From the NCBI RefSeq assembly GCF_900250115.1, contig NZ_LT984804.1:1379301-1443300 (forward strand): a DNA stretch of 64,000 bases. Direction: 5' to 3'. Positions 21,820-57,137 of the stretch are shown in pieces. The stretch is from Cupriavidus taiwanensis. GTDB taxonomy: Bacteria > Pseudomonadota > Gammaproteobacteria > Burkholderiales > Burkholderiaceae. The first letter of the stretch is position 1. The number at the start of each line of letters is the position of its first letter. The position numbers were made by a program, and so were the translations under genes. The notes under the pieces are model-generated. The model had not been told where the DNA came from. It saw nothing but the letters and a program-made list of their open reading frames with translations, and made no database searches.

Positions 21820-22790
21820 CAAAGTTGAAATGTCCGGTCGCCGGCAAAGCTAAAATGTCCGGTCAGTCTTCAACTTGCTTGGTCAGTTTTCTGGGTGTTC
21901 CGTAGGGCGGTGGTGCTGGCCTGACACGGTTGAATCCAGCTCAGGGTGAAGCAGTCATGCCGGCGGAGCGGATTTGAATTCCGGTAGCAAGCTGAGTTCA
22001 GTTCTCCGTTCCGTTAAGCGGCCACGGCTGCTGCTGTAAGCGTTGCAGAGCTTCCAACATATCGTTCTGGCCCAGGGAACGCTGGGACTTCTTGCCGGGC
22101 GGCCGTCGCGCTTCTCCTGAACGTATTGCGCTATCTGCAACACAGCTCCGAGCCGCTTGTTGTCCACAATCGCGCCCTGATCGATCTCCGATAGGCGAAA
22201 ACCAGCAGGGTGCAGGCTGGGGCGCGCTCCTCAAACCAGCGGTGATCGCTGCCGTCGATCTGGATCAGTTCGCCATAGCAGGCGTGCCGGTTACGAGGCT
22301 GGTAGACCTTCGGCGGCCGCTGTTTGCGCGGCACCCACAGGCCGGCCACCGTCATCAGCCGGCGGATCGTTTCCTTCGCCAGAGTGAGCCCGTGTGCTTC
22401 GCGCAGCTTCTCGGCCGCCAGGGTCGGGCCGAAGTCGGCATAGTGTTCCCGGATCAGGCCGAGCGCTGCGGCTTCGCGCTCGCCAGACAGACGGTTGTTG
22501 CTGGGTCGGCCGCGCTTGCGCGAGACCAGCCCGGCTGGGCCTTCCAGCCGGTAGCGCTCCAGTAACCGCCGCAGCTGCCGGTCAGTGATCTCCAATCGTT
22601 CGGCGGCCACGCCGGGCCGCAACTGACCATCCATGACCGCCTGGACGGTCTTGAGCCTGTCAATCTCGCGCATGCTTACTGTAATGACCTCTGGTCTTGC
22701 CATGCCTGGCGTCTCCATTGCATTCAACCGGACAGGCTGAATACCATGGGCAGCGCCTCGGGCGGACATTTCAGTCCTCTAACGTAAAGT
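21820..22790 (-). mobile_element. Decayed insertion sequence of the ISNCY type
   Basis: Remnant of an insertion sequence at the edge of the low-GC island. The left edge carries GTTGAAATGTCCGG and a second AATGTCCGGTC, and the right edge carries, in the other orientation, ACTGAAATGTCCGCC; these look like degenerate terminal inverted repeats. Between them lies a broken transposase. Edges are approximate. Confidence 0.6.
21955..22703 (-). pseudogene. ISNCY-type transposase, internally deleted and frameshifted
   Basis: The N-terminal part is intact from MARPEVITVSMREIDRLKTV through helix-turn-helix segments to the first catalytic region, IQIDGSDHRWFEERAPACTL. After CTLLVF the frame jumps to a different frame that encodes IDQGAIVDNKRLGAVLQIAQ, which belongs near the C-terminus of full-length ISNCY transposases. 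The middle (probably around 200 residues with the other two catalytic acidic residues) is gone. The protein cannot be functional. Confidence 0.72.
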
Positions 22791-23154
22791 TGTCGGCTGA
22801 GATTTGGCTTGACTGTTACCCTAGCGGCCTGTCCTTGGAGTACGCGGCACTTTTTCTCCCACGATCTATGTGTGGAAACATGACGTGGAAAAGTAAGAGC
22901 AACGTAAAACTGGAGGCAAAAGTAGGGAGGCGCATAAGGTACAAATGCTCGGGAAATATTAATCCGTGATAGCGATGGCCGGCTCCACCGTTAGCGCGAT
23001 AAGGTCTGCTTCTCCCGCTAGGCCGTAGTAACTAGCAACGTAAGCCGTGTTATAAACTTCACGGACTAAGATGAAACAGCCATGCGGAGTGAGCATTGTT
23101 CTACTTTTTGCTGTTGCCAGGCATCTGTTGATACCACCCATCGGAAGATCCAGC
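22791..23154. other. Gene-free stretch after the IS remnant
   Basis: 364 bp of lower-GC DNA in which I see no supported gene, RNA or repeat. Confidence 0.4.
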
Positions 23155-23445: not shown

Positions 23446-24653
23446 GGCCATGGCGCCGTGGATTCCAACTTCATATCCCCCGGCGCTGGCCAACTCTTGC
23501 AGCGAAGGTCCCGGGTTCTGACGCGCCAAAACTCTTATGCGCGCATGTACTCTGAGAGCTGTTCGATGATTCTCAGAGGAGTCGGGGTCCTGACCCATGG
23601 CTCATTCGGCGGCCGTCAACATTGCAAACGGTTCAGTCGCCTCGTCTGTTTTTGATAAGCGGGTAGCACAATTGAGCGATAGCAACTTGCGCCGCGCAAG
23701 GCGTCGCGGCATTGCGCACCTATGGTGTGTGCGCCATCGGATCTGACCGGCATGCCGAACATAACGTGTAAGCTGGCCATCCGCGACATCGCTGCAAGAA
23801 GGCGCGAGAGTTCTGCGTCATGGACGAGCAAGCGGCCGGAGTGTGCTCGCCTGAAATGGTCGATTAAGGCGACTGCAAGTAGGCAGACGGTTTCGTGAGC
23901 CAGCGCTAGGGAGCGTTCCTTTCAACGACACTCAAGACTGGTTCGCCCAGGTCGGCGAAAGTCGACCGGCCTTTTGCGGCGAACAGGGCAATCAACTCCG
24001 ATGGGTCCAACACTGCATGCGCTGCGTTGCTAATTTTCGGCTATGGGACTAGCTGAGATGACGCCACCGGTAGCGCTGACGAATGGCAGGGAATATTAGC
24101 CAAGCCCTGCAGAACGATAGTCCACGACTGCAGAGCGCGACGAGGGGCGAAGCATCTGAACTTGCCAAGCGTTTGTGTCCAGCAGACCTGCGGCGGTGAC
24201 AGCTAAATCGTCAAGGGACCTCTCACGACGTGTGACTTCTAAGCTGCAATAGCAGAGCCGGCATCAGAACGCCTACGGGAGAGGTGGTCAGTATGACGTT
24301 CCAATTTCCTAGTCGAGTCTGCTTTTCCACACAAATAACAATGTCGCACGCGTGTTCCGCAGGTCACTTTGGTCGCGATTACGGCCGTGGTGGTCAAAAG
24401 GCCATATGGCGCGCCGATCACGCAAAAATGCGGCGCATTCGTGCCTTCCGACGCCCGGGCTTATGAGATTTTCTGGAAATGCGTCAAGTTTTCCAACAAA
24501 AAGCGAAAAACCGACAGCCATGGATAATAAAAAAATATTTTATTTATATGCCGGCCAAAATGCCCGGAGAAATCCTCCCGTCTTGCGCCTTAAAATCATC
24601 TTGGCGAGATTTCTGACTCGCCGATAAAGCTTGCAATTTTTGGGGGGGCGACT

Positions 24654-24716
24654 ATGACAAATACAATTACGAGTCAGTTGCTCGTGCTTGAAAACAGCAC
24701 GGCGCGAGATCAGTAA
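24654..24716 (+). CDS. Possible 20-residue leader peptide
   Basis: A 20-codon frame (MTNTITSQLLVLENSTARDQ) preceded by a run of seven G that can act as a ribosome site. Its TAA stop falls exactly at the loop of a perfect 13-bp hairpin (24701-24732). The arrangement resembles a leader/attenuator ahead of the transposition operon, but there is no T-run after the hairpin and coding cannot be shown from sequence. Confidence 0.25.
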   Translation: MTNTITSQLLVLENSTARDQ

Positions 24717-24732
24717 CGGCTGATCTCGCGCC
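24701..24732. promoter_or_regulatory. Perfect 13-bp hairpin upstream of the transposition operon
   Basis: GGCGCGAGATCAG and CTGATCTCGCGCC are perfect complements around the loop TAACGG. It could be an attenuator, a terminator or a protein-binding site; on the minus strand a TTTT tract occurs a few bases past the stem, so a minus-strand terminator is also possible. Confidence 0.45.
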
Positions 24733-24926: not shown

Positions 24927-25556
24927 ATGAAACACGAGGCACATGTGGTAGTTCTGCCGCGAACAATCGCTGCGCGGCATTATGTTGACTTGCCCGGACG
25001 AGGCTTGCGCAACCTTTACGTTTTTGAGTCCCCCAAGAACAATAAACGGTTGGCGGTATTTGGGCAAGTTTGCTTCTGGCACCTGATGTTGGCGGAGGGG
25101 AACCCCGAGATTCGCCGATATATCTTGCGCTCAGATTTTGCCGGCAATGCTTCCGCTTCCGACGCCGTGGACGTCCATTTTGTGGGTGAAAAAATTGAGC
25201 GCTGGTATTTCAGCCGCCGCGGCTTGCCAAAGGAAGATCAGTGCCCCTATCCAATCATTATTAAGACTGAAGCGCAAATTCGCGCTGCCGGGCTACTTCC
25301 GCAAAATTGGAGATTCCTCTGTGCGGCACGTACCCGCGCTCATGGCAAGTATGCAGGCAAAGAGTTATTAGTGCTCGCGGGACTCTTTGAGGACCGCCAT
25401 ACCGTTGCGCTGAGCGAAGTGATCGCTCAGCCGGGCATAGATGTTGCCATTATGCTCGCTGCCGTTGCACAGCAACTGGCAATAGGGATTTTGCGAACCG
25501 AGCTCAAGAAGCAATTGTTTTCGCGGCGTTCCTTGCTCTCAAGGGGTGCAGAATGA
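24927..25556 (+). CDS. Small protein in the TnsA position of a Tn7-like operon
   Basis: Protein of 209 residues. ATG 24927 was chosen because GAGG lies about 6 bases upstream; ATG 24915 is in the same frame but has no ribosome site. By position (first gene, ATGA overlap with the DDE transposase) it is the TnsA/TniC counterpart, which would cut the 5' ends of the element. The segment FWHLMLAEGNPEIRRYI resembles the helix and 'dP.V..y' of TnsA nucleases, followed by a strand VDVHFVGEKIERWYF where PDF...EVK would be expected. The usual catalytic E, D and K are not evident, so this may be a highly diverged or inactive nuclease, or an unrelated accessory protein. Confidence 0.6.
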   Translation: MKHEAHVVVLPRTIAARHYVDLPGRGLRNLYVFESPKNNKRLAVFGQVCFWHLMLAEGNPEIRRYILRSDFAGNASASDAVDVHFVGEKIERWYFSRRGLPKEDQCPYPIIIKTEAQIRAAGLLPQNWRFLCAARTRAHGKYAGKELLVLAGLFEDRHTVALSEVIAQPGIDVAIMLAAVAQQLAIGILRTELKKQLFSRRSLLSRGAE

Positions 25557-27514
25557 AATCAGGTGCGAGACGTTCTATGATTCCTGCTGCATTGCAGGAT
25601 ATTGCAGCTTGGCCAGATATCGACGTATCTAACCTAGACGAAAATGCACGTCGTGGCGTAGCACGCAAGAAGGAGGCGATCGCTCTCTACATTGCAGGGT
25701 ATAGCTTTAAAGCTATTGCAACCGAAACGCTGATTTCTGACGATACCCTTCGTCGTATCATCAAGCGCTGTCTCGCCGTCGCCCCGGATAAACGGATTTT
25801 CGGTTTTCGCGCCCTTTATCCAGGGCTTCACGTCGTAACATACAAGCGGTCGAAGTCGGCAGCGCGCAATTTTGTAGGGGGCACAATCTGCTCAAGCGGA
25901 TATGCAGGCGCCCTGGGGCAGCTATTCGATCGCTTTCCCTGGTTGCGTGAACGAGTCATAAATCAGTTTCTTGGGCGGAATGACGACGGCGAATATGTTG
26001 AAGCCAGGAAGTCAATTGCCAATATTCACAAGGAGTTCTTTGAAGAATTGAAGGGAAAACTCAAGCCGAGCGAATGGCCTTTACATACGAAAAATCGTGG
26101 ATACTCCGCACTTCGGAAGTATTTGCATGCGCTGTTGAAAACCAGACCGACCGCATACATTCGGGAGCGCAGTGGGGAGGAGGCCGCGAGGCACTTGATG
26201 ATCGGAAGGGGGCATCCACGCTTGATTCAAGCGTGGATGCCGTTTTCGATCTTGGAATTGGATTATGTCCGGCAGGATGCACCCGGGTACATCGAGTTCG
26301 AGGACCGCTATGGCCAACTACATCGTTTGCTTGTCGCGCGTTGGTACGTCGGTTTGCTGGCCGATGAGTGCACTGGGGGCGTATGTGGCTATCACGTCGC
26401 TTATGAGGCCGAGCCGTCGGCCGATACGGCCCTCCAGACTGTCCTCTCTTCGTTGATGCCGGTAGCACAGGACGACGTCGCGCCATTGATGCGCGATGTT
26501 GTACCTGAACACGCCTCACTCCTGCCAAATCTTATTCTCCTCTATGCGCGACAGGGGTGTTGCCTGCTTAAAGTCGACAATGGGTGGGCGAACGTTGCCA
26601 ATGACTTTGTGAACAATGTCATCGATGTACTCGGTTGCGCTGTCGAGTTCGGCGTTCCGCGCGCCTGGTGGCTCCGACCCTTTATCGAGCGACTCAATGG
26701 AAAGCTGGCTGAACGGGGCCTCCATCGACTGCGGTGTACCTATGGCAGTGGTCCGCATGATCCGCGGCGCCACCAGCCAGAGAAGGAGGCAGCGCTGTAT
26801 ACACTGCGTGACAAGGATCTTACGGCAATCCTCGATGCCGTCATCGCAGAGCATCACACCGTGTTTACGCCGGAAAAATTCTTCCGCAGCACCATTCGCG
26901 ACATATTGGAAGGCTATGCGACACGGCCGGAGCTCGATTGGGTACCACAGCCGTTGCCAATCTCGAGCGAGCCGGAACTACGGCTCCTGATGCATAAGAC
27001 GGTGGCCACTGTCCGAGGTTCAGTGAAGAAGGGCGTGCGGCCCTACGTTCAATTTGATCGATGCCGCTATACAAATCAGCGACTCTCCTCTGACTTCACG
27101 CTGATTGGGCAGAAAGTGGAGCTTCAAGTCCAGCGGATGGACATTCGCAAAGCATGGGCCGTCCTCCTCAGTACTGGACAGGATCTTGGACAACTAAATC
27201 CGGACGCCCGCTGGGCCGACTGGAAGTATTCGATTCTGGCTCGGCAAGTCATGAATCGGAAAGCCTTAGCGTGTCCAGCCGAACGAGATCCTCGGGTTGT
27301 ACATGAGGTTATAAAGGCGAGGCGTCAAGCACTCATCGAACAGAAGCCAAAAAAGCGAAGTAAACGCGAAGCTTTGGAAATCGCCAAACTACAGCGACAG
27401 ATCGCGTACGACCCAGCGGAGGGATCAACCAGGTCATCTGCCGAGCACGGTAGTAGGGAACCACGGGGGATATTCGGCGAATTTCGCAATACCAGGAGAG
27501 ACGATGATGTCTGA
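25553..27514 (+). CDS. tniA: DDE transposase of Tn7/Tn5053-like element (TnsB/TniA family)
   Basis: Transposase of 653 residues that cuts 3' ends and joins them to the target. An N-terminal helix-turn-helix lies at about 40-72 (IALYIAGYSFKAIATETLIS), followed by a second DNA-binding region. The retroviral-integrase-type catalytic core is intact: D237 in ILELDYVR, D342 in LKVDNGWANVAND, and E379 in RPFIERLNGKL, with 36 residues between the last two. A Mu-type C-terminal beta-barrel region follows (about 505-560), and the end is basic (EQKPKKRSKREALEIAKLQR). It overlaps the upstream gene by ATGA and the ATPase gene by 11 bases. All catalytic residues being present suggests activity. Confidence 0.88.
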   Translation: MKSGARRSMIPAALQDIAAWPDIDVSNLDENARRGVARKKEAIALYIAGYSFKAIATETLISDDTLRRIIKRCLAVAPDKRIFGFRALYPGLHVVTYKRSKSAARNFVGGTICSSGYAGALGQLFDRFPWLRERVINQFLGRNDDGEYVEARKSIANIHKEFFEELKGKLKPSEWPLHTKNRGYSALRKYLHALLKTRPTAYIRERSGEEAARHLMIGRGHPRLIQAWMPFSILELDYVRQDAPGYIEFEDRYGQLHRLLVARWYVGLLADECTGGVCGYHVAYEAEPSADTALQTVLSSLMPVAQDDVAPLMRDVVPEHASLLPNLILLYARQGCCLLKVDNGWANVANDFVNNVIDVLGCAVEFGVPRAWWLRPFIERLNGKLAERGLHRLRCTYGSGPHDPRRHQPEKEAALYTLRDKDLTAILDAVIAEHHTVFTPEKFFRSTIRDILEGYATRPELDWVPQPLPISSEPELRLLMHKTVATVRGSVKKGVRPYVQFDRCRYTNQRLSSDFTLIGQKVELQVQRMDIRKAWAVLLSTGQDLGQLNPDARWADWKYSILARQVMNRKALACPAERDPRVVHEVIKARRQALIEQKPKKRSKREALEIAKLQRQIAYDPAEGSTRSSAEHGSREPRGIFGEFRNTRRDDDV

Positions 27515-28496
27515 AGCTATTCTCGATGATATCCGTAGTCGTTTGCAAACCGGTACCCATCCGCTTCTCGCACACGAGAGTAATACTCCATTGTGGACGC
27601 CACCGATAAGACAAGCTTATGCGGCATGCAAGCTATGTATCTTGCAGCGTCGAAGCTTTTACATCTCAGAGGTAACGGGAGAGGGGAAAACGTCGCTGTT
27701 GCGCGCGCTGAGCGCGCAGTTACCGAGCGATTTTGGTGGTAGCCTCGCAACACTTGATTACTCGGCAGCAAACCGCGAGGTGCCTTCCATACGCGCCTTC
27801 TTCATAGAAGTTCTTTGGTCGATAGATCATCCTAAGCTTAGCGGAGAAACCCCTAGGCTCAAAGTGCGCGTGTGCAACAGCCTCGAAGTATTGGCTAGCA
27901 CGACGTTGTGGAACATGATGGTGCTGCTGTTGGACGAGGCCCAGGCGTTTCTACCTGAAGATTTCGGATTTCTCAAGGACATACATAATAAACTTGTGAA
28001 GCGAGGAAGTTCATTGATCGTAGTGACATGTGGAGAGGACCCGGATTTGAAGATGAAGCTGGAATCCATGCAATCACACGGGCCCGCTGGCGCATGTGCT
28101 GATCGGTTTGGTCTTCACAGAGTGAGATTGCGCGGTTACAACAAGGAATCACTGCAAGCCTTACTCCACGCGGTTGACGTCAAAACTTGGCCGAAAGAGT
28201 CCGGATGCACGTGGGCCCAGTACTTCTTCCCGAAGGCGGTCGCAGAGGGATATCGGCTTGAAAACGACTTGGAAGTCTTTTGGAAATCCTTTGAAAGTCT
28301 TGGTCTAGTCAGAGAGATACAGGTTGGAAGTGGGGTAAATAAGAAAATGGAGAGGTACTTGCTGAGTCGGCGAATTTTCGATGCGCTTTCGTACTTTGTC
28401 GTTCGCGTTGCGGACGACGATTTCAAAAAAGGTAGCCTGGAAAAAGAGTACTGGGACGCAGCGGTAGCGCATGCCGCCGGTATGATGGATGACTAG
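27504..28496 (+). CDS. tniB: AAA+ transposition ATPase (TnsC/TniB family)
   Basis: ATPase of 330 residues that links target selection to the transposase. It starts at one of two tandem ATG codons after AGGAGAG. The Walker A is slightly unusual: EVTGEGKTS (56-64), which lacks the first glycine of GxxxxGKT. Walker B is LLLDEAQAF (141-149), and a sensor-1 segment LIVVTCGEDPD follows. The C-terminal part is longer than in classical TniB and may contact TniQ. Confidence 0.85.
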   Translation: MMSEAILDDIRSRLQTGTHPLLAHESNTPLWTPPIRQAYAACKLCILQRRSFYISEVTGEGKTSLLRALSAQLPSDFGGSLATLDYSAANREVPSIRAFFIEVLWSIDHPKLSGETPRLKVRVCNSLEVLASTTLWNMMVLLLDEAQAFLPEDFGFLKDIHNKLVKRGSSLIVVTCGEDPDLKMKLESMQSHGPAGACADRFGLHRVRLRGYNKESLQALLHAVDVKTWPKESGCTWAQYFFPKAVAEGYRLENDLEVFWKSFESLGLVREIQVGSGVNKKMERYLLSRRIFDALSYFVVRVADDDFKKGSLEKEYWDAAVAHAAGMMDD

Positions 28497-28511
28497 CATC
28501 TGGTGCTCATT

Positions 28512-29822
28512 ATGGCAACGAACGAAGCGGACAGACAACTGCTGGCTTGGACAGGCGTCCAGTGGGGGCCGCTTCCTTATGAGTCGACGTTATCTTTACT
28601 GATGCGATGGGTTCAGCTAAATGACCTAAGCGAGGGCGACTTGACAGTGCTGCATGTCAAACGTTACTGGGGCAGGAGGAGGAAATGCTACTTTGATGCG
28701 TCCAATGTACTAGCCGCGGCACTGGAGAATGCTGGGGTCATTCTGCAGCGCCCGGTCGAGGAAGCGAGCGTCATGACCGGGCGCGCGGCCTGCCTCTTGG
28801 GTGCGTTGTTTTCGTCGATGCTGAGGATATGTCCGTTGTGTTTGGAGTGTGGCTACCACAGCTTTTGGTTTCAATGCGTTGCGCTTCCCTTGTGTCCGAT
28901 CCACGCGGTACCGTTGACGTCTCGTTGTCAAAATTGTGGTTGCGCACTACCAGGCGTGATTGATGCCTGCAACACGTCGAATCCCTATTACTGCAAACGT
29001 TGCCGATCGCCGATCTCCGGCGGGGAGTTTTTACCTCTCATGCATTGTGAATTCCGAGACCACGAAGCAGAACTTCACCGAAGGTTCGAGAGCCTATTGG
29101 CCTGGGCAAACAGCCTACATCTGGCTCATGCTGACGTTGGGTCTGCGTATGCAGAGATTTGCAGCTATTGGGAGAGGCGCGAAGCGCTTGCCTACGCGCT
29201 ATGCGCTCGTCTTTCGGCTTCCCTCCCGCCAAGCCTTGAGAGCTCTAAGCACTATGTATCGATACTCAGTTGGTGTTTGCGCCGAGATGGGACACTATTG
29301 TTTCAATCAAGGCGTCGGAGGGATGAGCGGCGGTACGTCGATCTCGTGTATCGGGCTACGCTACGAATGCTGGCGAAATGGCTGCTAGTACAAACGGCGC
29401 CTTGTACCGAGCGACACTGTTCAAGGGTGTGGCGGGACGGTAGACTGCTACGAATTGAATCGCAAGATCATCACGTTGCAGCTCTTCATGTTCTCCGCTA
29501 TTTTTTTGATGGAGGGCCGTCTTTGGGGAACTACTCATTGACGGACGATGTTCGTCATGTATGGGCGGAGAAGGGCGTGCAAGGTTTGCTCCGTAGTAGC
29601 CTTTGCCGATTATCTGTGCGGGCCGTGACGCTCTGCCTCTATGCGACCATCGTAAAAATCCTCAAGCGCGGAAAACCCATCGTGTTTGACAGCTTTCTGA
29701 TCGAAATCGTAGAAAATGCGTGTGTCGCGGATTTCGGGAGTGACGAGTACTGCCACGGATTTGTAGCCTTCGAAAGCGTGGCGGGCATGCCGATAAACCC
29801 GTTTCATCGGTTGTCATATTGA
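28512..29822 (+). CDS. tniQ: TniQ family target-selection protein
   Basis: TniQ/TnsD-family protein of 436 residues that chooses the insertion site. ATG 28512 is preferred; a GTG nine bases upstream is also in frame. The N-terminus LLAWTGVQWGPLPYESTLSL is the usual TniQ opening. A zinc-binding region is clear: CPLCLECGYH (C107, C110, C113), FQCVALPLCPIHAVPL (C128, H131), CQNCGC (C139, C142) and CKRC (C161, C164). The C-terminal ~250 residues show no match to a known DNA-binding domain, so the target cannot be predicted. No tnsE-like gene follows. Confidence 0.85.
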   Translation: MATNEADRQLLAWTGVQWGPLPYESTLSLLMRWVQLNDLSEGDLTVLHVKRYWGRRRKCYFDASNVLAAALENAGVILQRPVEEASVMTGRAACLLGALFSSMLRICPLCLECGYHSFWFQCVALPLCPIHAVPLTSRCQNCGCALPGVIDACNTSNPYYCKRCRSPISGGEFLPLMHCEFRDHEAELHRRFESLLAWANSLHLAHADVGSAYAEICSYWERREALAYALCARLSASLPPSLESSKHYVSILSWCLRRDGTLLFQSRRRRDERRYVDLVYRATLRMLAKWLLVQTAPCTERHCSRVWRDGRLLRIESQDHHVAALHVLRYFFDGGPSLGNYSLTDDVRHVWAEKGVQGLLRSSLCRLSVRAVTLCLYATIVKILKRGKPIVFDSFLIEIVENACVADFGSDEYCHGFVAFESVAGMPINPFHRLSY

Positions 29823-30290: not shown

Positions 30291-30803
30291 TCATACCTGG
30301 CGCGATCGGCGCGCGGCGCCGACCAGCCCGTCTAGCCAATCCTGATGGCCGTTGAGCATCGGGTTCGGCCGGGTCTTGGCAAGGACTGTCGCCGGCTTGC
30401 CCTTCTGCACTTCCTGAGTCAGGATGCGCACCCGTCCGCCGGACAGATCCTCGACGAGCCAAGCGTGGTGTACATCGAGGTGCTCCTCGCCATCGCCCGC
30501 CCAGCCGTGCCACGCCACGCGCCCGGGCATGCCCAGCGCTGGCTCGACGTACTCGGTGACCTGCGCTTCCACCGGAAAGCCGAAAGTGCTGAAGGCGAAG
30601 CGACGGCCGGCGAATAGCGCCGGGCCTTCACCGTCGTGAAAGACGATGTCCGCCGAGTTCTCGTAGTAGTCGGGCCAGCGCTGGGCTTCGCTGAGCCACG
30701 GCCATACTTCGAGCGCACTCAGGCCGTCGACGATGACTTCATTGGAAACGAAATTTTCGGTGGTACCGGGCAGATAGTCGTCCGGCCAGAGGATTGCGTG
30801 CAT
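30291..30803 (-). CDS. SRPBCC-fold protein of unknown function
   Basis: Protein of 170 residues starting at MHAILWPDDYLPG after CGGAG; a longer frame upstream lacks support. The pattern fits the START/SRPBCC (polyketide-cyclase-like) fold: an opening strand, the EVWPWLSEAQRWPDYYENSA helix region, FGFPVEAQVTEYVEP, RVAWHGWAGDG, and a long C-terminal helix NGHQDWLDGLVGAA. Members bind hydrophobic ligands in a deep pocket. It lies 106 bp downstream of a LysR gene on the same strand, near an aromatic catabolic operon, and may bind an aromatic intermediate. Confidence 0.7.
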   Translation of the reverse strand: MHAILWPDDYLPGTTENFVSNEVIVDGLSALEVWPWLSEAQRWPDYYENSADIVFHDGEGPALFAGRRFAFSTFGFPVEAQVTEYVEPALGMPGRVAWHGWAGDGEEHLDVHHAWLVEDLSGGRVRILTQEVQKGKPATVLAKTRPNPMLNGHQDWLDGLVGAARRSRQV

Positions 30804-30909
30804 ATGGGACTCCGTGGCGTGAGAGAAGCCGGCGCAACCGCAGTAGATTGTTCTGCGCGCCGTGAATTGATGTTCCATGATGGCGAGGCGCAAGACATAA
30901 ATCCAATCC

Positions 30910-31869
30910 TCAGTTTTTATGTGTTACATCAAAACTGGTGATATCAGACGCATAGTCCGACCTAAGGCGGGTGTCACCGCAGGTCTCCACCAACAGTTCC
31001 CGCAGCCAGCGGTGCGCGGGCTCGCGATGCGTCCGTTCATGCCAGACCGCGGTCTTAGTGAAGCCGGGAATCGCCACGGGAGGGTTGAAGACAGCGAGCC
31101 CGTCCAGTCCTCGCACCAATCGAGCAGGCAGTACGGCGACCATGTCGCTGGCGCGCAGCAGTTCCGGCAGTATGAGGAAGTTCTGCACCGATAGCATGAC
31201 CCGGCGCGCCTTCCCGATCGTCTCCAGCGCGGCGTCTGTCACACCGCGGAAGCGGTTGCCACTGTAGGACACCAGCGCATGATCGAGTTCACAAAACTTC
31301 CTGAGCGTGAGGCGACGGCCTTGCGCGGCGGGATGGTCGGCGCGCATGACGCAAACGTAGCGCTCGTCGAACAGTCGGCGGGCATACAGGTCCGGCGGCG
31401 AGGTCTCGGGCGTGAGCAGTGCGAGGTCGACTTCGCTGTGTTCAAGCTGGCTCTGGACCCGCGCCTCTTCGACTGCGACCAGCGACACCCGCATGTGCGG
31501 CGCACGCTGGCGCAGCGCCGTCACGAAGGGCGCTGCGATAGCGCGCGCGGCGTAGTCTGTGGCGGCGATGGTAAAGGTGAGTGTCGCGCTGGATGGTTCG
31601 AACACCGCCGGTTGCAGCAGCGCGCTGATTTGTCCCATCACCTGCCGCAGCGGCTCCGCCAGCGCCAGCGCCCGCCGAGTGGGCACAATGCCGCGCCGGG
31701 CGCGGGCGAAAAGCGGATCCCCGAAGGTGCCGCGCAGGCGGACCAGCATCGCGCTCATAGCCGGCTGCGTGACGCCTAGGCGCGCAGCCGCGCGGGTGAC
31801 GTTCTGTTCATCGAGCAGTGCATCGAGCGCCTTGAGCAGATTAAGGTCGAGGGTCTTCAAGTCTTTCAT
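30910..31869 (-). CDS. LysR-type regulator (NodD/NagR-like subgroup)
   Basis: LysR regulator of 319 residues starting at MKDLKTLDLNLLKALDALLD, the opening typical of the subgroup that includes NodD, NahR and LinR. The helix-turn-helix VTRAAARLGVTQPAMSAMLV is at about 26-45. The effector domain has the FTIAATDYAARAIAAPF core. NahR-type members respond to aromatic acids, so control of a nearby aromatic pathway is likely, but the closest operon start (33190) has its own TetR-type gene. Confidence 0.87.
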   Translation of the reverse strand: MKDLKTLDLNLLKALDALLDEQNVTRAAARLGVTQPAMSAMLVRLRGTFGDPLFARARRGIVPTRRALALAEPLRQVMGQISALLQPAVFEPSSATLTFTIAATDYAARAIAAPFVTALRQRAPHMRVSLVAVEEARVQSQLEHSEVDLALLTPETSPPDLYARRLFDERYVCVMRADHPAAQGRRLTLRKFCELDHALVSYSGNRFRGVTDAALETIGKARRVMLSVQNFLILPELLRASDMVAVLPARLVRGLDGLAVFNPPVAIPGFTKTAVWHERTHREPAHRWLRELLVETCGDTRLRSDYASDITSFDVTHKN

Positions 31870-32374
31870 TTGCGAGAAGAGAGAGACTGGTGTGGAGGAC
31901 GGAGGCAGTCTGCATTGTGCCAGGGGCACGTTTCTCGACGCCGGGCAGTTCCCGGCTTCATCTCCATACCGACGCGTTGTGCATTGGAAACCTCGGTCAA
32001 TAGCTACGCTGTCCGGAGGGCGGTCATGCTATGGAACTTCCCGGTTGGAGCTGACGCGCTTCACCGTCCCGGCTGTTACCGCCGGCAACGGCGTTCGCCC
32101 TGGCCCTTGAACACTTGTCCGTCGACACTGGTTTGCAGAAGAACGTCCAGGACGTGCGGCTCTGCCAGTGGTAATGAGCGCGGCCGTTAGGACGCGAGTT
32201 GTCCTATGGCGCTGTGTCACGCGCCCTGGGGCGGCATTTTGTTGCACTCGTTGGCTTCGCGATGGCCAATGTCGTTTCAGATTCCGTCATTGCAGACTAG
32301 AGTTCAATGCCTCCCAATGGTCTGAGCCAGTCATCTCAATCTTGAACCCTTCCCTTAGCACGTGATGCTGCCTA
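31870..32374. other. Intergenic stretch between LysR and TetR genes
   Basis: 505 bp with no supported gene or repeat; upstream region of the minus-strand LysR gene and downstream region of the minus-strand TetR gene. Confidence 0.4.
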
Positions 32375-33091
32375 CTACCCTACAAGGGTGTTTGCACGGA
32401 TCGTTGCTCTTGCTACGAGCGAATCCTCCGGTATGGCAACAGGTTGCAGCGGCTCGAAGGCAATGCGCTGCGCGTCCATTTGCGCCACCCCAAGCGCCCG
32501 CAGCAGCGTCGCGACGACCCACTCCGGATAGTCCTCGGCCGCACCGCCGGCCTCCAGCCGGGCGATCGCCATCAGCGCCTGCCCGCCGATCAAGTCGACT
32601 GCCACTTCCATTGGCATCCGCTGAAAGCGCCCAGAGGCAAAGCCCGCTTCCAAGTGTTGCGGCACGTATTCGTAGATCAAGTTATTCGGGCTTGCCAAGT
32701 GCAAGCCTGTCTGCACGACAAAGCTCGCGAACAATGGAAACGCGCGCGCCTTGTATAGGTAGAGCCGCACGCCCATCGCGATGCGCTCCGCTGGGTCTTC
32801 GTACTGGCTGACGGTGCGTTCAATTGCATCAATTAGTTCATTACTGAGCTCCTCTGCCACGGCCAGCAGCAGTTCTTCATTGGTCCGGAAGTAGTTGTAG
32901 AAGGTGCCCTGTGAGACACCTGCTGTTGCGATCACATCTTGGATCACACTTGCACCGACGCCTTTCTCGGCAAATATCGCCAAGGCGGTTTCTGCCAAGC
33001 GCGCCCGCATGCGCTCGCGCCGCTCTGCAGCGACGCGGGTCCGATGGTCAGTCTTGCTTGCCTCGCTCATAACTTTTTGCGCAGTTGTCAT
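32375..33091 (-). CDS. TetR-family regulator divergent from meta-cleavage operon
   Basis: TetR-type repressor of 238 residues; an in-frame ATG at 33070 is an alternative start. The N-terminal helix-turn-helix is clear (RLAETALAIFAEKGVGASVI, then DVIATAGVSQGTFYNYFRTN). The C-terminal ligand domain is less conserved. It is divergent from the hydrolase gene, with only 98 bp between the starts, and a perfect inverted repeat lies in that gap, so it very likely represses the operon until a pathway compound binds. Confidence 0.88.
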   Translation of the reverse strand: MTTAQKVMSEASKTDHRTRVAAERRERMRARLAETALAIFAEKGVGASVIQDVIATAGVSQGTFYNYFRTNEELLLAVAEELSNELIDAIERTVSQYEDPAERIAMGVRLYLYKARAFPLFASFVVQTGLHLASPNNLIYEYVPQHLEAGFASGRFQRMPMEVAVDLIGGQALMAIARLEAGGAAEDYPEWVVATLLRALGVAQMDAQRIAFEPLQPVAIPEDSLVARATIRANTLVG

Positions 33092-33132
33092 TCACGGCAA
33101 TTCTAACCCCACCCCTAGGGAAAACGAGAGTC

Positions 33133-33147
33133 TTGTCATAATGACAA
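33133..33147. promoter_or_regulatory. Putative TetR operator between divergent genes
   Basis: TTGTCAT-A-ATGACAA is a perfect 7-bp inverted repeat around one base. It sits 42 bases from both the TetR start and the operon start, as expected for a TetR-family operator that controls both directions. Confidence 0.6.
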
Positions 33148-33189
33148 TGTACTCAGTATGATTGGCGCAGTCCAACAGAGGAGCCCGCG

Positions 33190-34065
33190 ATGAATCTTGC
33201 CGACCTGCAGATTTCATTAGCCAGCAGTACCGTCCGTATAAGCGGCAGAAACATCTTCTATGCTGAGGCGGGTGCCGGCGCGCCGTTGATGATGCTGCAT
33301 GGTGGTGGTCCCGGGGCTTCCGGGGTACCGAACTACGAGCGCAATATTGCGGAGCTGGCACGCTATTTCCGCGTGATCATTCCCGACATGCCGGGCTACG
33401 GTCGCTCAACCAAGGGCCTGAGCCGCTCCGATCCATTCGGCGACTGTGCCGAGGCCATGCTCGGCCTACTCGATTACCTAGAGATCGACCGCGCATGCGT
33501 GGTCGGCAACTCACTGGGCGGGGCATGCGCCTTGCGCATGGCGCTAGACCGCCCACGTCGCGTCGCCGGCCTGGTGCTGATGGGGCCGGGCGGGATTGAT
33601 ACCACGCGCAGCCTGCCGACGGCGGGGCTGAAGTGCCTGCTCGACTACTATGGCGGCGCAGGCCCGAGCAAGGATAAGCTCACCACCTTTATCCGCCAGT
33701 ACCTGGTGTACGACGGCGCGCGGGTGCCGCAGTCAGTGATCGACGGGCGCTTCCAGGCCAGCTTGGACCCGGAGGTCGTAGCCTACCCGCCCCTGGTGCG
33801 GCCCAAGGGCTTGCCGAAGTTCCGGCTAATCGACTTCACGCGGGACCCGCGCCTGTCCAAGCTGCAGACCCCGACGCTGGTGCTGTGGGGCACCGAAGAT
33901 CTCGTCAACCGGCCCAGCGGCGCGCAGTCCCTGCAGAAGCGCATGCCGAACTGCGACGCCTACTTGTTCAGCCGCACCGGTCATTGGGTGCAATGGGAGC
34001 GCGCGGAGGAATTCAATGCTGCGGTAACGGCGTTCACTCGCAAGCAGATGGAGACCGTGCAATGA
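33190..34065 (+). CDS. Alpha/beta hydrolase, meta-cleavage product (C-C) hydrolase type
   Basis: Serine hydrolase of 291 residues of the MhpC/BphD type, which cleaves a C-C bond in the ring-opened 2-hydroxy-6-oxo-dienoate. Visible: oxyanion motif HGGGPGASG (37-45), nucleophile S108 in VVGNSLGGA, acid D237 in WGTEDLVNRP, and H265 in TGHWVQWE. It is the first gene of the operon and overlaps the next gene by ATGA. Sequence and neighbours fit the meta-pathway; the exact dienoate is unknown. Confidence 0.88.
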   Translation: MNLADLQISLASSTVRISGRNIFYAEAGAGAPLMMLHGGGPGASGVPNYERNIAELARYFRVIIPDMPGYGRSTKGLSRSDPFGDCAEAMLGLLDYLEIDRACVVGNSLGGACALRMALDRPRRVAGLVLMGPGGIDTTRSLPTAGLKCLLDYYGGAGPSKDKLTTFIRQYLVYDGARVPQSVIDGRFQASLDPEVVAYPPLVRPKGLPKFRLIDFTRDPRLSKLQTPTLVLWGTEDLVNRPSGAQSLQKRMPNCDAYLFSRTGHWVQWERAEEFNAAVTAFTRKQMETVQ

Positions 34066-35771
34066 GTGCCGCTGCATCCATTATTGTCGTGGGCGCTGGC
34101 CCGGTGGGTATGTGCGCCGCGATCGAAGCGGCGCGCCGCGGCATCGATGTGCTGGTCGTCGACGCCAAGTCTGCCGACAAGCCGGCCGATGCCAAGTGCA
34201 ATACCGTGGCGTCGCGCACGCTCGAGACCCTGCGCCGGTTCGGTATTGCCGACCAGGTTCGCGCGGCGGGGCTGCCGGACGACTACACCACGGACGTCAT
34301 CTATGCGACCAGCCTGGCCGGTCCGGAACTCACGCGCATCGAACTGCCGTCGCGCAATGAGCGCGCTGCGCAGCGTTTCCCTAAGGGCTTTCCTGATGCG
34401 CACTGGCGCACGCCCGAGCCCTTCGTGCGGGTCAGCCAGTTGTACTCGAATCCGATCATCGCGCGCTGCATGCATGCGACGCCGGGCGTCACGGTGCGCT
34501 ATGAGACGGAAGTCATTGGCTACACGCAGGACGACGGCGGTGTCGCCGTGCGGCTGCGGCACCGAGACGGCAGCGAGAGCAGCGTGCGCGGCCGGTATGT
34601 CATTGCCGCCGACGGGGGCCGCAGCGTGGTGCGCCAGGGCATGGGCGTGCGGCTGCAAGGCGATGCCGAGCTGGCGCATATGCGTTCCACGCTGATCCGC
34701 GCGCCGGGCGTGCGCAAGTTGTTCGGCGATCGCCGGCCGGCATGGATGAGCTGGATCGTGAACCACAAGGTGCGCGGCGTCGTCGTCGCCATCGATGGCG
34801 AGGATACGTGGCTGCTGCACCGCCAGTTGCCTGCCGGCGAGCGGGACTTTAATGCGTTGGACCTGCACGAGTCGATCCGCGACCTGCTCGGCGTGGAAGC
34901 AAGTTTTTCGTATGAGGTGCTGCACCACGAGGACTGGGTGGGCCGGCGGCTGGTGTCGTCGACATTCCGTGACCGCCGCGTATTCCTCGCCGGCGATGCG
35001 GCTCACCTTTGGGTGCCGTTCGCAGGCTATGGCATGAACGCCGGTATCGCCGACGGCGTCAATATCGCCTGGCTGCTCGCCAACGTGCTGCAGGGCTGGG
35101 CCGATCCGGCGATGCTCGACGCGTATGAGGCCGAACGCCAGCCCATTACCGAGCAGGTCTCCCGGCATGCGATGCAGAGCATGCTCGACACCATCGATGC
35201 GCTGGGGCAGGGAACCGCTCCCAAGGCTTTGTCGTCGCGCTACAACCCGGCCGGCATCGCCATGCGCAAGGTGATGGGGGCGAAGCTGTACAAGCTCAAC
35301 GTCCCGCAATTCGCGCCGGAAGGGCTCAACTTTGGCTATTACTACGAGGGCTCGCCCATCATCGCGTATGACGGGGAACCGGCGCCGCAGTACACCATGG
35401 GCGGCGTTACGCCATCCACCGTGCCCGGTTGCCGCATGCCCCATTTCTGGACGGAGAGCGGCGAGTCGGTCTACGACTTGCTGGGTCCAGTCTACACGCT
35501 GCTGCGCTTCGATGCCTCGGTGGATGTCAACGGACTGCTCCAAGCCGCGACAGCCGCGCGCATGCCGATCAAGGTGGTGGACGTGACGACCGTCAGCGGC
35601 GACCCGGTCTTCCGCCATCGGCTTCTGATCGTGCGCGAAGACCAGCACGTCGCCTGGCGCGGCGACACGGCGCCGGCAGACCCCGGTGCGCTGGTCGAGC
35701 TGCTTTGCGGCAGGGCTGGTGCGCGGGCCGCGCAAGCACGGCATCGCAAGCAAGAGGGCCTGGCCGCATGA
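34062..35771 (+). CDS. FAD-dependent aromatic monooxygenase (class A flavoprotein hydroxylase)
   Basis: Flavoprotein of 569 residues that should hydroxylate a phenolic ring using NAD(P)H. The start is the ATG overlapping the hydrolase stop (ATGA); a long upstream extension of the frame is a shadow. FAD-binding motif IIVVGAGPVGMCAAIEAARR is at the N-terminus, the second flavin motif RRVFLAGDAAHLWVPFAGYG is central, and GMNAGIADGVNIAWLL follows. The ~150-residue C-terminus is a thioredoxin-like fold as in phenol hydroxylases. Two such enzymes in one operon suggest two successive hydroxylations, or two entry substrates. Confidence 0.88.
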   Translation: MSAAASIIVVGAGPVGMCAAIEAARRGIDVLVVDAKSADKPADAKCNTVASRTLETLRRFGIADQVRAAGLPDDYTTDVIYATSLAGPELTRIELPSRNERAAQRFPKGFPDAHWRTPEPFVRVSQLYSNPIIARCMHATPGVTVRYETEVIGYTQDDGGVAVRLRHRDGSESSVRGRYVIAADGGRSVVRQGMGVRLQGDAELAHMRSTLIRAPGVRKLFGDRRPAWMSWIVNHKVRGVVVAIDGEDTWLLHRQLPAGERDFNALDLHESIRDLLGVEASFSYEVLHHEDWVGRRLVSSTFRDRRVFLAGDAAHLWVPFAGYGMNAGIADGVNIAWLLANVLQGWADPAMLDAYEAERQPITEQVSRHAMQSMLDTIDALGQGTAPKALSSRYNPAGIAMRKVMGAKLYKLNVPQFAPEGLNFGYYYEGSPIIAYDGEPAPQYTMGGVTPSTVPGCRMPHFWTESGESVYDLLGPVYTLLRFDASVDVNGLLQAATAARMPIKVVDVTTVSGDPVFRHRLLIVREDQHVAWRGDTAPADPGALVELLCGRAGARAAQARHRKQEGLAA

Positions 35772-36757
35772 AGACGACCCTGTTTGGCAGCGTGCGGCTT
35801 GGCTATGTGATGGTTGAATCCAGCCGGCTGGCGGAGTGGAAGCGCTTTGCCGCCGACGGATTGGGGCTGCACGTCGATGAGGTTTCGACTGACACGCTGG
35901 CTTTGCGTGTGGACGATCGCAACCGCCGTCTGGTGGTGCAGCGTGGCTCGGCGGAGGACGTCGTGGCTCTCGGTTGGGAGCTGGACGACGACGCGGCGCT
36001 GCGCCTTGCGCTGGAGCGCCTGCGCGAGATCGGCATCTCGCCCCAGCTTCACCGCGGCGGCGAGGCCGGGGCGCGCGGTGTTTCGGAGTACTGGTCGTTC
36101 ACCGGACCCAAGCGCACTTCGGTCGAACTCTTCACCACGCCGCTCAAGACCGGGCGCCCGCTACTGATGAAGGCGAGCGGTTTTCTCACCGGTGCCGGCG
36201 GCCTGGGCCACGTCGCCATCACCACGCGCGAGCCGGAGGCGATGCAGCGCTTCTGGCAGCGTATCTTCGATGCACGGGTCTCCGACTACATCGAGGATCG
36301 CCTGAGCGGCATCGATCTCGATTTCACGTTCTTGCGGCTGAACGAGCGGCACCATTCGGTAGCGATCGCCTTCACCCGCGGTGTGCGGCTCAACCCGCTG
36401 CGTACCAGCATCCATCACCTGAACCTGCAGGCAGCGAACCTGGAGGACGTGACGGAGGGCTATCGCCGTTGCCGCAAACTGGGCTACCCGATTGCCAATG
36501 CGATCGGCCAACATTCCAACGATCGCGAACTGTCGTTCTATGTGGAGACACCCAGTGGCTTCGAAATCGAACTCGGCTGGAACCCCATCGTCGTGACTGA
36601 AGAGGCGGAGCGGCAGTGGTTCCAGCAGAGTTATCGCGGTATCAGCCTATGGGGACACTACCCCGAAAACCTTACGCTTGGCCTGTCGGCACGCCGATTC
36701 GGGCGTGGCCTGCTATCGCTCGCACGCCGTGAGTTTACCGTTGGGGCGAAACCATGA
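35768..36757 (+). CDS. Extradiol ring-cleavage dioxygenase (VOC type I)
   Basis: Two-domain vicinal-oxygen-chelate dioxygenase of 329 residues that opens a catechol ring meta to the hydroxyls. It starts at an ATGA overlap. The C-terminal catalytic domain has the iron ligands H148 (GGLGHVAITT), H216 or H217 (TSIHHLNLQ) and E268 (SGFEIELGW), together with the active-site H196 and the conserved QHSNDRELSFYVETPSGF segment known from BphC-type enzymes. The N-terminal domain is the usual non-catalytic VOC repeat. The substrate is presumably the catechol made by the monooxygenase(s). Confidence 0.9.
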   Translation: MKTTLFGSVRLGYVMVESSRLAEWKRFAADGLGLHVDEVSTDTLALRVDDRNRRLVVQRGSAEDVVALGWELDDDAALRLALERLREIGISPQLHRGGEAGARGVSEYWSFTGPKRTSVELFTTPLKTGRPLLMKASGFLTGAGGLGHVAITTREPEAMQRFWQRIFDARVSDYIEDRLSGIDLDFTFLRLNERHHSVAIAFTRGVRLNPLRTSIHHLNLQAANLEDVTEGYRRCRKLGYPIANAIGQHSNDRELSFYVETPSGFEIELGWNPIVVTEEAERQWFQQSYRGISLWGHYPENLTLGLSARRFGRGLLSLARREFTVGAKP

Positions 36758-38517
36758 GCGCGCGGGAGGCGGAATTCGACGTCGTCATCGCCGGCCTCGG
36801 TCCCACGGGCCTGGTGCTTGCGCATACACTCGGCATGCGCGGCGTGTCAGTGCTGGTGCTGGAGCGTGAGCCGCAGTTCTACGGCAACGCGCGGGCCGTC
36901 TACACCGACGGCGAATGCATGCGCATCTTCCAGTCCTTCGGCATGGCCGACCGGCTGCTGCGTGACATGCTGGAAGACGTTCCGGTGCAGATGATGCTGC
37001 CGGACGGCTCATGCCTTGGCACGCTGATGAGCGACGACCGCCAATATGGCTGGGCGATGAGCCACTTTTTCTACCAGCCGTTCCTGGAGACTGCGCTGGC
37101 CGATAACTTGTCGACATACCCGACCGTCACGATCCTGCGCGGGCGCGAAGTCGTCAGGTTTGAGCAGGACGATGCGGGCGTGGATATTCGCCACATCGCC
37201 ACGGCAGGCAGTGGCTACGGCCAGGCGCCGGAGCCCGGCAGCCAGGGCCTGCATGCCGTCGAAGCCAGCGTGCGCGCACGCTATTTCGTCGGTGCCGATG
37301 GCGGACGCAGCCTGGTACGCACGCAGCTTGGCATCAAGATGACGGGACGGTCCTTTCCCAATCCGTGGCTAGTTGTGGATATCAAGGCCAGGGATGGGAT
37401 CGACGGGCTGCGGCACGTGCCGTATTTCGCCTTCGTCTGCGATCCGGCATGCCCGACAGTGAACTGCGTGCAGCCGAAGGGCCATCACCGTTTCGAATTC
37501 ATGTTGGCGCCTGGCCAGACCAAGGAGCAGATGGAAGACCCGGCGACCGTGCGCCACTACCTGTCCCGGTACGTCGATGTCGACCGCTTCGAGATCCTGC
37601 GCAAGTTGGTCTACACCTTCAATGCCCTGATGGCGGAGCGCTGGCGCGATCGGCGCGTGTTCCTGGCGGGCGATGCCGGCCACATGATGCCTCAGTTCAT
37701 CGGGCAGGGAATGAACGCCGGTGTGCGCGATGCCCATAACTTGGGCTGGAAGCTGCACGCCGTGCTGAGCGGCGCAGGATCGGACAGCTTGCTCGATACT
37801 TATGAGCACGAACGCCGTCCCCACGCCACGGCGATGATCCGCGAGGCCGTGCGCGTGAAAGACTTTGTCTCGGTCTCGAATCCGGCGCTCGCGGCGCTGC
37901 GCAACGGGGTGTCGCGCGTGCTGACGCGGCTGCCGGCGATCGGGCCTTTCATCAATCGTGGCGATTTCATTCCCAAGCCGGTCTATCGCCGTGGCGCATA
38001 CCTTGGCCTGCCACGCCGGCGCTGGTCAGGTCGCGAGGGCACGTTGATGCCACAGCCGATCGTGCGCGCCTCCGATGGCTGCCGCCACCGGCTGGACGAC
38101 GCGCTCGGCGCAGGGTTCGTGCTTTTCGGTGCCGGCGTCGACCCGAGGTCGCTGCTGGACGTCGACGCGCGCGCGTGGTGCGACCGTATTCGTATGCGCT
38201 ATGCGGTGATCTATCCCTGGGGCGAGCGGCCGTACGGCGCCATCCCGCAATGCTGGCCGACGGACCTGATCGAACTGGAAGATGTTTCCGGCGACTGGTA
38301 TCGGTGGCTGAAGCGCGCCGGCGCTCGCCATGGCAGCGTGGCGATTCTGCGTCCGGACCGCTTTGTCTTCGGCATCGTGCCGGAGCGCCGGCTTGGCGAT
38401 GCCACGGCGAAGCTGCGCGAAATGCTGGGTACTCCCGAGATCTCCGGCCATGCTTCGCTGGCCGATCGCACTGCTGCCCATATCAGACCATCGTTCCCGA
38501 CCAAGGAGGCCGCTTGA
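36754..38517 (+). CDS. mhpA: MhpA-like FAD-dependent hydroxylase
   Basis: Flavin hydroxylase of 587 residues, similar in layout to 3-(3-hydroxyphenyl)propionate hydroxylase. It starts at an ATGA overlap. It shows GLGPTGLVLAHTLGMRGVSV at the N-terminus, the ADGGRSLVRTQLGI motif, and FLAGDAGHMMPQFIGQGMNA in the centre. The end is thioredoxin-like with SVAILRPDRFVFGI. MhpA hydroxylates 3-hydroxyphenylpropionate or 3-hydroxycinnamate; the true substrate here may differ. Confidence 0.85.
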   Translation: MSAREAEFDVVIAGLGPTGLVLAHTLGMRGVSVLVLEREPQFYGNARAVYTDGECMRIFQSFGMADRLLRDMLEDVPVQMMLPDGSCLGTLMSDDRQYGWAMSHFFYQPFLETALADNLSTYPTVTILRGREVVRFEQDDAGVDIRHIATAGSGYGQAPEPGSQGLHAVEASVRARYFVGADGGRSLVRTQLGIKMTGRSFPNPWLVVDIKARDGIDGLRHVPYFAFVCDPACPTVNCVQPKGHHRFEFMLAPGQTKEQMEDPATVRHYLSRYVDVDRFEILRKLVYTFNALMAERWRDRRVFLAGDAGHMMPQFIGQGMNAGVRDAHNLGWKLHAVLSGAGSDSLLDTYEHERRPHATAMIREAVRVKDFVSVSNPALAALRNGVSRVLTRLPAIGPFINRGDFIPKPVYRRGAYLGLPRRRWSGREGTLMPQPIVRASDGCRHRLDDALGAGFVLFGAGVDPRSLLDVDARAWCDRIRMRYAVIYPWGERPYGAIPQCWPTDLIELEDVSGDWYRWLKRAGARHGSVAILRPDRFVFGIVPERRLGDATAKLREMLGTPEISGHASLADRTAAHIRPSFPTKEAA

Positions 38518-39299
38518 AGGCGACCGAAGCTATCCAACGCGCGGCGCTGAAGCTGCGCGAAGCCAGGGCCACCCGTGTCCCTGTATCCCCAGTCTCCGTG
38601 TCTCACCAGCTTGAGGGGCTCGAAGTCGCCTACCAGGTAGCGGAGCTGAATACTCTTGCGCGGCTGGAGTCGGGGTGCCGCATCGTCGGCAAGAAGATCG
38701 GCCTGACTTCTAAGGCCGTGCAGCAGCAACTCGGCGTCGATCAGCCGGATTTTGGCGTGCTTTTCGACGACATGGAATTCCTTGACGGCGCCGAGATTCC
38801 GACCGAGCGCCTGATTCAGCCGAAGATCGAGGCCGAGGTCGCGTTTGTGGTGGGTCGCGACTTGCCGGCGCGGTCACCCACGTACGGTGAGTTCCTTAAC
38901 TGCCTAGCGTACGCGCTGCCAGCGCTGGAGATCGTCGACAGCGCGATCGCCGATTGGAAGATCAGCCTGTTCGATACGGTGGCGGACAACGCCTCCTCCG
39001 CGCTCTACGTGGTCGGCGATCAGCCGGTGCCCGTCGGCGCATTGGCGCTTGCTGATCTGGGCATGGCCATGACCCGGCAGGGCGATACTGTTTCTGTCGG
39101 AACTGGCTCCGCATGCCTAGGCCATCCGCTGCGGGCAGCCTACTGGCTGGCCCGCACGATGGCCGAACGCAGCCAGGGACTCAAGGCAGGGGAGTTGATC
39201 CTGTCCGGCGCACTCGGGCCCATGGTGCCTGTAAAGGCAGGCGATCTGATCCAGGCCCGTATCGCGGCACTGGGCACCGTGAATTGTCGCATGGCCTGA
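38514..39299 (+). CDS. mhpD: 2-keto-4-pentenoate hydratase (MhpD-like)
   Basis: Hydratase of 261 residues that adds water to 2-hydroxypenta-2,4-dienoate to give 4-hydroxy-2-oxovalerate. The start is a TTG at 38514: AAGGAGG lies five bases upstream and the TTG overlaps the preceding stop as TTGA, so translation is coupled. Family features: [36 protein letters not shown] with the metal-binding acidic pair, and [14 protein letters not shown]. Length is close to the usual 260-270. Confidence 0.9.
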
Positions 39300-39318
39300 C
39301 CGGCCCGGAGCAACGTTT

Positions 39319-40275: not shown

Positions 40276-40286
40276 GAGGAAAGACG

Positions 40287-41156: not shown

Positions 41157-41174
41157 TTCCCTCGGGGAGTCATC

Positions 41175-42266: not shown

Positions 42267-42323
42267 CGCTTTCTCCGGCCGCGCCCCTAACTGGCTGGGT
42301 TCTTTCCGTAACTTTCAAGCTGA

Positions 42324-44036: not shown

Positions 44037-44224
44037 GGACGAGGCATCTGCTGCGCCGTGATGGACGCAGCCTCATCGCTGAGCCGGGTGCACATTGCAT
44101 GTGCCCCGACAGCAGCGTTCCCACCAAGATCGACCGCGCCGGCGAACAACCGCATCGCCAACGTCCCGGACACGCAGTACTCCCCACGTCCACCGTCGGT
44201 CAAGAATAGCGAGCGAGACAAAAG

Positions 44225-45691: not shown

Positions 45692-45745
45692 ACGGCTCCG
45701 GCAGCAGCCGACAAATGAATCAAAGCCATATTTGGAGAGATTGAA

Positions 45746-46801: not shown

Positions 46802-46814
46802 GAAGGACTTCGCA

Positions 46815-47117: not shown

Positions 47118-47141
47118 CGGCACGGCACACAGGATTAAACC

Positions 47142-48533: not shown

Positions 48534-48565
48534 GTCTATCCACGTAACTACGCCAGGAGACATCG

Positions 48566-51429: not shown

Positions 51430-51453
51430 GCTTCAGAAGCCCCATTAATGCTG

Positions 51454-51467
51454 TTTGTGATCACAAA
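51454..51467. promoter_or_regulatory. Palindromic operator upstream of NDH-2
   Basis: TTTGTGATCACAAA is a perfect 14-bp palindrome, 24 bp before the NDH-2 start. Its TGATCA core matches palindromes at 43447-43456 and 53581-53590. Likely site for the GntR protein next door. Confidence 0.5.
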
Positions 51468-57136: not shown

Positions 57137-57137
57137 G

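Follow-up and report, generated by a model that had tools for sequence, protein, structure and literature searches.

Tn7-like transposons are known to insert at conserved genes, CRISPR-guided sites, conjugal plasmids and res sites; the catalytic residues of TnsA in Tn7 numbering are E63, D114 and K132, and Tn5053 itself carries a serine resolvase. Mutations in the tnsA active site are stated to block cut-and-paste transposition without abolishing the replicative route (Benler et al. 2021, PMC8649781). In the open-licence papers covered, supplements excluded, dif targeting is described for insertion sequences (ISs) of the IS1202 family (PMC10132070) and for no Tn7-like element, an absence that is no proof. 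Here we report on a stretch of 64,000 nucleotides from Cupriavidus taiwanensis (the window; G000:C2:1379301-1443300, G000 being the window's own genome), in which a block of four genes, A to D, is the core of a giant Tn7-like transposon, ~82 kb long here and 75-134 kb in its relatives. Comparison of the copies indicates that these elements very likely target dif. A sequence-only reading of the window had set the extent of the element at 24927-29822, far short of its actual size, and had not foreseen the insertion beside dif.

Element ends and the neighbouring dif site

Relatives were gathered by tblastn on plasmids, by whole-genome searches (60 genomes for the end searches) and by one genome-contig scan; labels such as G158, G411b and P10c5 are working names for genomes or copies, P10c5 and P10c3 being copies in Cupriavidus sp. 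P-10, and extended coordinates continue the window numbering past 64000. Besides the window type we distinguished a second type (type 2), whose A and B proteins are 42% and 38% identical to those of the window. The type-2 copies are 99.7-99.99% identical to one another, and their comparison fixed the ends exactly: AGTCAGACGACG... lies upstream of A, at about 0.5 kb, and ...CGTCTTTCGACT closes the other side after 75.2 kb in G158, the other copies being longer owing to inserts. The left end of the window type, AGTCCTCTAACG[T/C]AAAG, occurs at window position 22773 and in P10c5, P10c3, G411b and G415. The right end of the window element was found by an end-motif scan at extended coordinate 105015 (G000:C2:1484315), 41 kb past the window, which gives a total of 82,243 bp; 19 of the first 20 bases are identical between the left end and the inverted right end. 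The relatives P10c5, P10c3 and G411b measure 133.7, 128.6 and 132.0 kb, respectively. ACGTAAA repeats, which may be transposase binding sites, were noted close to several ends, without statistics.

A repeat search close to the operon returned no end pair, since the ends are tens of kilobases apart; a break common to P10c5 and G411b at +54/+57 kb was rejected, the true right ends lying farther out; and a candidate end at window ~24313 was given up, as homology continues through it. G421 C4 holds a more distant element, about 64 kb from a dif-like site, for which no end pair was found, and a search of viral contigs for relatives found none.

Twelve insertions from ten genomes were delimited at both ends, seven of type 2 and five of the window type, the two ends of G432 (type 2) and of G415 (window type) being on different contigs. 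An exact 5-bp duplication flanks 11 of the 12, namely all seven type-2 copies (AGCAG, TGTTC, GCATC, CAGAG, GGCAT, AGTGT and GTTGA) and four of the five window-type copies (P10c5 CTATT, P10c3 TTTGG, G411b TCAGG and G415 AAAGC).

In all 12 copies, the tns-distal (right) end lies 34-120 bp from a dif-like XerC/XerD site. The distances are 34, 37, 38, 39, 39, 47 and 49 bp in type 2 (seven right ends in all, from 6 of the 60 genomes and C. campinensis), with the XerD arm facing the element in one orientation, and 47, 50, 64, 93 and 120 bp in the window type, where the XerC arm side faces it. In G411, a single dif is indeed flanked on both sides, by a type-2 element on one and a window-type element on the other. 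With the dif-like pattern TTTAACATAA-N6-TTATGCG at up to 2 mismatches, we counted 4, 3, 2, 1, 2, 2, 7 and 7 sites per genome in the eight genomes other than G432 and C. campinensis, and the reversed-pattern control gave 0 in 8/8; the site of G399, more diverged than this pattern, came from a looser scan. The chance that a random point falls within 120 bp of such a site is about 4e-5 to 2e-4. Furthermore, the chromosome-1 dif of the window's genome (G000:C1:1667857) is an unoccupied homologous site, with 83% identity over 437 columns across the junction. Next to this dif, IS1202-like end sequence lies on the XerC side, and the XerD side is free of Tn7-like elements.

The tns operon and its diverged TnsA

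The four tightly coupled open reading frames (ORFs) were confirmed at the coordinates and lengths that the sequence-only reading had given (Table 1). A TnsB-type DDE transposase, together with an AAA+ ATPase and a TniQ in the TnsB operon (the TniQ by way of a relative's sub-cut-off match), identifies the element as Tn7-like. For the transposase B, whose three acidic residues are as previously listed, phmmer found a weak similarity to PseTnsAB in the PDB (E 7e-4). B is 87% identical to its counterparts in C. oxalaticus and on two replicons of Cupriavidus sp. P-10; the identity to that of C. campinensis is 38%. The ATPase C matches AAA_22 (E 5e-7), and its Walker A, EVTGEGKT, was rightly described as lacking the first glycine; in the six sequences compared, two close relatives lack it too (EIAGEGKT and APTGAGKT), and three distant ones have GxxxxGKT. 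Because it is common to close relatives, this deviation is a trait of the clade. D, which had been read as a zinc-binding TniQ, is Cys-rich and homologous to a relative that matches TniQ PF06527 at E 7e-5, under that family's cut-off, but domain scans gave no TniQ match of its own. In an unrooted TnsB tree of 15 relatives, built without Tn7, Tn5053 and CAST sequences, the deep nodes are weak, and the number of active-site losses is therefore not readable from it.

We then collected 18 A-position proteins via their gene neighbours, three of them near-identical window-type rows. The window A protein, whose gene has an alternative in-frame ATG at 24915 (homologues start at MKHEA), matches no Pfam or NCBIfam family, and a PDB profile search with 17 A proteins gave no relevant match. 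The A protein of Klebsiella grimontii pNY3A, however, matches TnsA_N PF08722 (E 4e-12) with E, D and K all retained, while nine other A proteins scanned did not match this family. With the pNY3A protein as query, tblastn reached A proteins of Burkholderiales, the best at E 4e-6, and hhalign aligned the five nearest A sequences with an eight-sequence group including pNY3A over 186 columns (95.8% probability; E 8e-9, the value for one comparison). Moreover, A and B form a single ORF in Paraburkholderia caribensis MBA4 (920 aa) and Caballeronia SBC2, and probably in Burkholderia pyrrocinia too. By profile match, shared gene place and fusion to TnsB in relatives, A is thus a TnsA homologue in sequence terms. 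In the alignment of the 18 proteins, the catalytic Glu and Lys are each lost in 17 and the Asp in two, and the window protein has C49, D82 and R97 at these columns, as anticipated in the earlier remark that it lacks an E-D-K centre. The TnsA active site has very likely been lost, and A is best read as a dead TnsA. The first of the two options left open by the sequence-only reading, an inactive TnsA or a new accessory factor, is accordingly the one favoured.

Two inverted sequences were also observed in the operon region. The repeat upstream of A (Table 1), which has a base change in its spacer in one of the six aligned copies, shows tyrosine-recombinase core-site geometry but could be a hairpin or a terminator. 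A near-palindrome lies within the tnsB coding sequence at 26211-26245 and is kept in the P-10 and C. oxalaticus copies.

Transposition route, resolution and competing explanations

We propose that insertion is carried out by TnsB, TnsC and TniQ such that the tns-distal end of the element comes to face dif, with TniQ as the putative target selector and the target presumably sensed as a dif occupied by XerC/XerD. A, with two of three active-site residues lost, would probably be a structural subunit that leaves the 5' strands uncut, so that transposition would be replicative and yield a cointegrate; the element's own tyrosine recombinase could then resolve this at the adjacent palindromic core site. 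The replicative route, which had been suggested for the case of an inactive TnsA, is likely on this evidence. We hold the model as a whole, from dif-directed insertion by a Tn7-like element with a dead TnsA to replicative copying and tyrosine-recombinase resolution, to be reasonably probable. We also lean towards its extension to a clade that recognises XerC/XerD-bound dif, uses a dead TnsA as scaffold, copies itself replicatively, resolves by means of its own tyrosine recombinase, and makes the dif region a dock for defence and catabolic islands of 75-134 kb.

In the window element, the recombinase (extended 90055-91758) is of the tyrosine type, has 567 aa and contains DUF3701; a perfect inverted repeat with 12-bp arms and a 6-bp spacer lies ~30 bp upstream of it. 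In type 2, a tyrosine recombinase of 444 aa and a KfrA_N gene point away from each other on either side of a dif-like palindrome. Phage_integrase matches were found inside 8/8 single-contig elements (seven genomes searched), with only a fragment in G449, and in MBA4, Robbsia, B. vietnamiensis G4 and C. necator H16 the operon has tyrosine recombinases or DUF3701 proteins at its flanks. A serine resolvase was dropped as a candidate resolution enzyme, as these eight elements gave no PF00239 match. A role of the element-encoded recombinase as resolvase is plausible.

Several observations weigh against this picture. The right-end search gave 14 matches in 8 of the 60 genomes, of which five are the delimited copies and nine were left uncounted because no full element was delimited, being incomplete, scrambled or lacking a left-end partner. 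Among these nine, G448 shows a dif-like site with 2 mismatches at 46 bp past the end, but in G441 the dif is 726 bp beyond, in G455 (79% over 194 bp) the only 2-mismatch dif-like site is ~0.9 kb off, and the other six have no dif-like site within 1.5 kb. No target duplication flanks the window copy (ATTTC vs ATGCC); its flanks are overlapping, slightly different pieces of one IS end and look as if two insertions had recombined. The termini are AGT...ACT (AAT at one end in two copies) and not the TGT...ACA of Tn7 relatives, though the family as a whole may not share the latter form. In the window type taken alone, the IS end and dif are not separable as the target. As for resolution, the palindromes beside the recombinases were found without a shuffled control, the same genomes hold 7-37 Phage_integrase matches each, which makes the presence of such matches in the elements weak taken alone, and Tn3 transposases occur in P10c3 and G411b. 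Finally, the model as a whole is built from sequence analysis.

The strongest competitor keeps replicative transposition but assigns resolution to host XerC/XerD, at dif or at an internal dif-like site, or to RecA, the recombinases being passengers, for example from lost Tn3-family transposons; we regard this as a serious possibility, though short of even. A dif-like site indeed lies 1.1-1.2 kb inside the right end in three of the five window-type copies (L172, L173 and L174), whereas none was found at up to 2 mismatches in P10c5 and G411b, and the exact duplications speak against exchange at the flanking dif. The recombinases, for their part, differ between the two types, lie 9-26 kb from the right end, and in their DUF3701 form resemble a subgroup that includes TnpR of Tn4401, a Tn3-family resolvase (PMC8138268). 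Against a passenger origin, the window element, P10c5 and type 2 of G411 and G158 contain no Tn3 transposase (G399, G449 and G415 were not searched). The three internal sites may be XerC/D sites carried by the elements.

It is unlikely that cut-and-paste is still used, with A cutting through other residues (E57, D82, and R97 in the Lys place) or another nuclease cutting the 5' strands. A has been retained, E57 is invariant in 18/18 rows and D82 is conserved, and simple insertions with 5-bp duplications are also a product of cut-and-paste; however, the Glu and Lys columns hold varied residues in 17/18 rows, and E57 aligns with a non-catalytic Glu that the intact Klebsiella protein has too.

That the window type aims at IS1202-like IS ends and not at dif itself appears quite improbable. 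The window element was inserted into the end region of the IS1202-like IS that flanks it, of which the fragment on the left (Table 1) matches at the DNA level an annotated ISNCY IS and a second copy in Cupriavidus sp. P-10, and all five window-type insertions are in such IS ends. Those ISs are themselves beside dif, however, and other IS copies in the window's genome (e.g. C3:424003 and C3:444648), not near any counted dif, are free of the element. Since type 2 is located on the other, IS-free side of dif in 7/7 copies, it separates dif from the IS end. Lastly, a new accessory factor unrelated to TnsA is very improbable for A, for although neither the protein nor its profile has a Pfam, NCBIfam or relevant PDB match and an AlphaFold model built from 3 sequences had a mean pLDDT of 45.6, too low to judge whether the fold is restriction-endonuclease-like, the profile match, synteny and fusion to TnsB all speak against it.

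Cargo and comparison with known systems

These Tn7-like elements carry defence genes in addition to catabolic cargo. The pPIWI_RE island, reduced to remnants in the window (Table 1), is intact with its three genes beside A in C. oxalaticus (L013:6053-13745) and the P-10 relatives. A Gabija system lies near the right end of the window element (extended 93320-97160), and the type-2 cargo includes a CBASS-type SAVED effector and a TPR-GreAB-PIN protein. Two large neighbouring ORFs beside Gabija (1385 and 727 aa, L143:13430-19770), past the window and within the right end, have no Pfam or PADLOC matches and are candidate defence genes. In plasmids of Klebsiella, Cupriavidus and Xanthomonas, operons of the wider family (L162, L165 and L159) adjoin CBASS-like, Shedu and Pycsar genes.

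Table 1. Coordinates of the features within the window
Feature	Position	Strand	Remarks
ISNCY-type (IS1202-like) transposase fragment	22131..22769	-	left flank of element; HTH domains as in annotated ISNCY transposase
Left terminal inverted repeat, AGTCCTCTAACGTAAAG...	22773..22792	+	same end in 4 relatives with other flanks
pPIWI_RE gene remnants	23536..23696	-	three-gene defence island deleted in window copy
Perfect inverted repeat upstream of A	24701..24732		13-bp arms, 6-bp spacer; conserved across six aligned window-type copies
A, diverged TnsA homologue	24927..25556	+	209 aa; catalytic Glu to Cys, Lys to Arg, Asp kept
B, TnsB-like DDE transposase	25553..27514	+	653 aa; D237, D342, E379
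C, TnsC-like AAA+ ATPase	27504..28496	+	330 aa; PF13401, Walker motifs
D, TniQ-like, probable target selector	28503..29822	+	439 aa; zinc-binding cysteines
Cargo within window: catabolic genes and regulators	30291..64000		element continues to extended 105015

A family aimed at dif, if true, would find a place to land on almost every circular replicon, and such targeting would explain the gathering of very large islands at dif. The idea of transposons that sense recombinase-bound sites becomes testable with XerC/XerD, and a diverged, dead TnsA may be present in some of the elements whose tnsA is scored as missing with domain models.

Among described systems, clade 2 of Benler et al. 2021 is alike in having lost the nuclease function, gained a tyrosine resolvase and been predicted to be replicative (PMC8649781). 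Its tnsA was scored as absent by means of Pfam models, whereas the element here keeps a diverged dead homologue; dif or Xer do not occur in the main text of that paper. Tn6022 with TnsF likewise combines Tn7-like target selection with a Xer-like protein, but its target is comM and its selector a dead tyrosine recombinase (PMC10293859); the main text of the same work, a survey of Tn7 target selectors by Faure et al. 2023, mentions neither dif nor XerC.

The IS1202 family shares a TnsB-like transposase, the 5-bp duplication and the insertion beside dif; its members are 1.5 kb, with a transposase only and TGT ends, 5 bp from the XerC arm (PMC10132070). In contrast, the element here is multi-gene, 75-134 kb, with AGT ends 34-120 bp from dif, and falls outside the definition of that family. 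The TnpI/irs and TnpS-TnpT/rst systems of the Tn3 family resemble the resolution module, with a tyrosine recombinase and an inverted-repeat core site beside a gene or between divergent genes, and the type-2 recombinase/KfrA_N arrangement is the layout described for TnpS-TnpT/rst (PMC7157771). The module here, however, sits in a Tn7-like element, and both the window element and type 2 (G411 and G158) lack a Tn3 transposase.

The closest parallel in mode of action is the Tn5053/Tn402 group of res-site hunters, which have a Tn7-related core, take a site-specific recombination site as target, and combine cointegrate formation with a resolvase (PMC11406308). They target plasmid res sites without TnsA, whereas the element described here is at dif, has kept a TnsA homologue and carries a tyrosine recombinase. 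Of the label Tn7/Tn5053-like in the sequence-only reading, the Tn7-like operon stands; the element works like Tn5053, but with a TnsA homologue, no PF00239 match and dif in place of res, it is not a member of the Tn5053 family.

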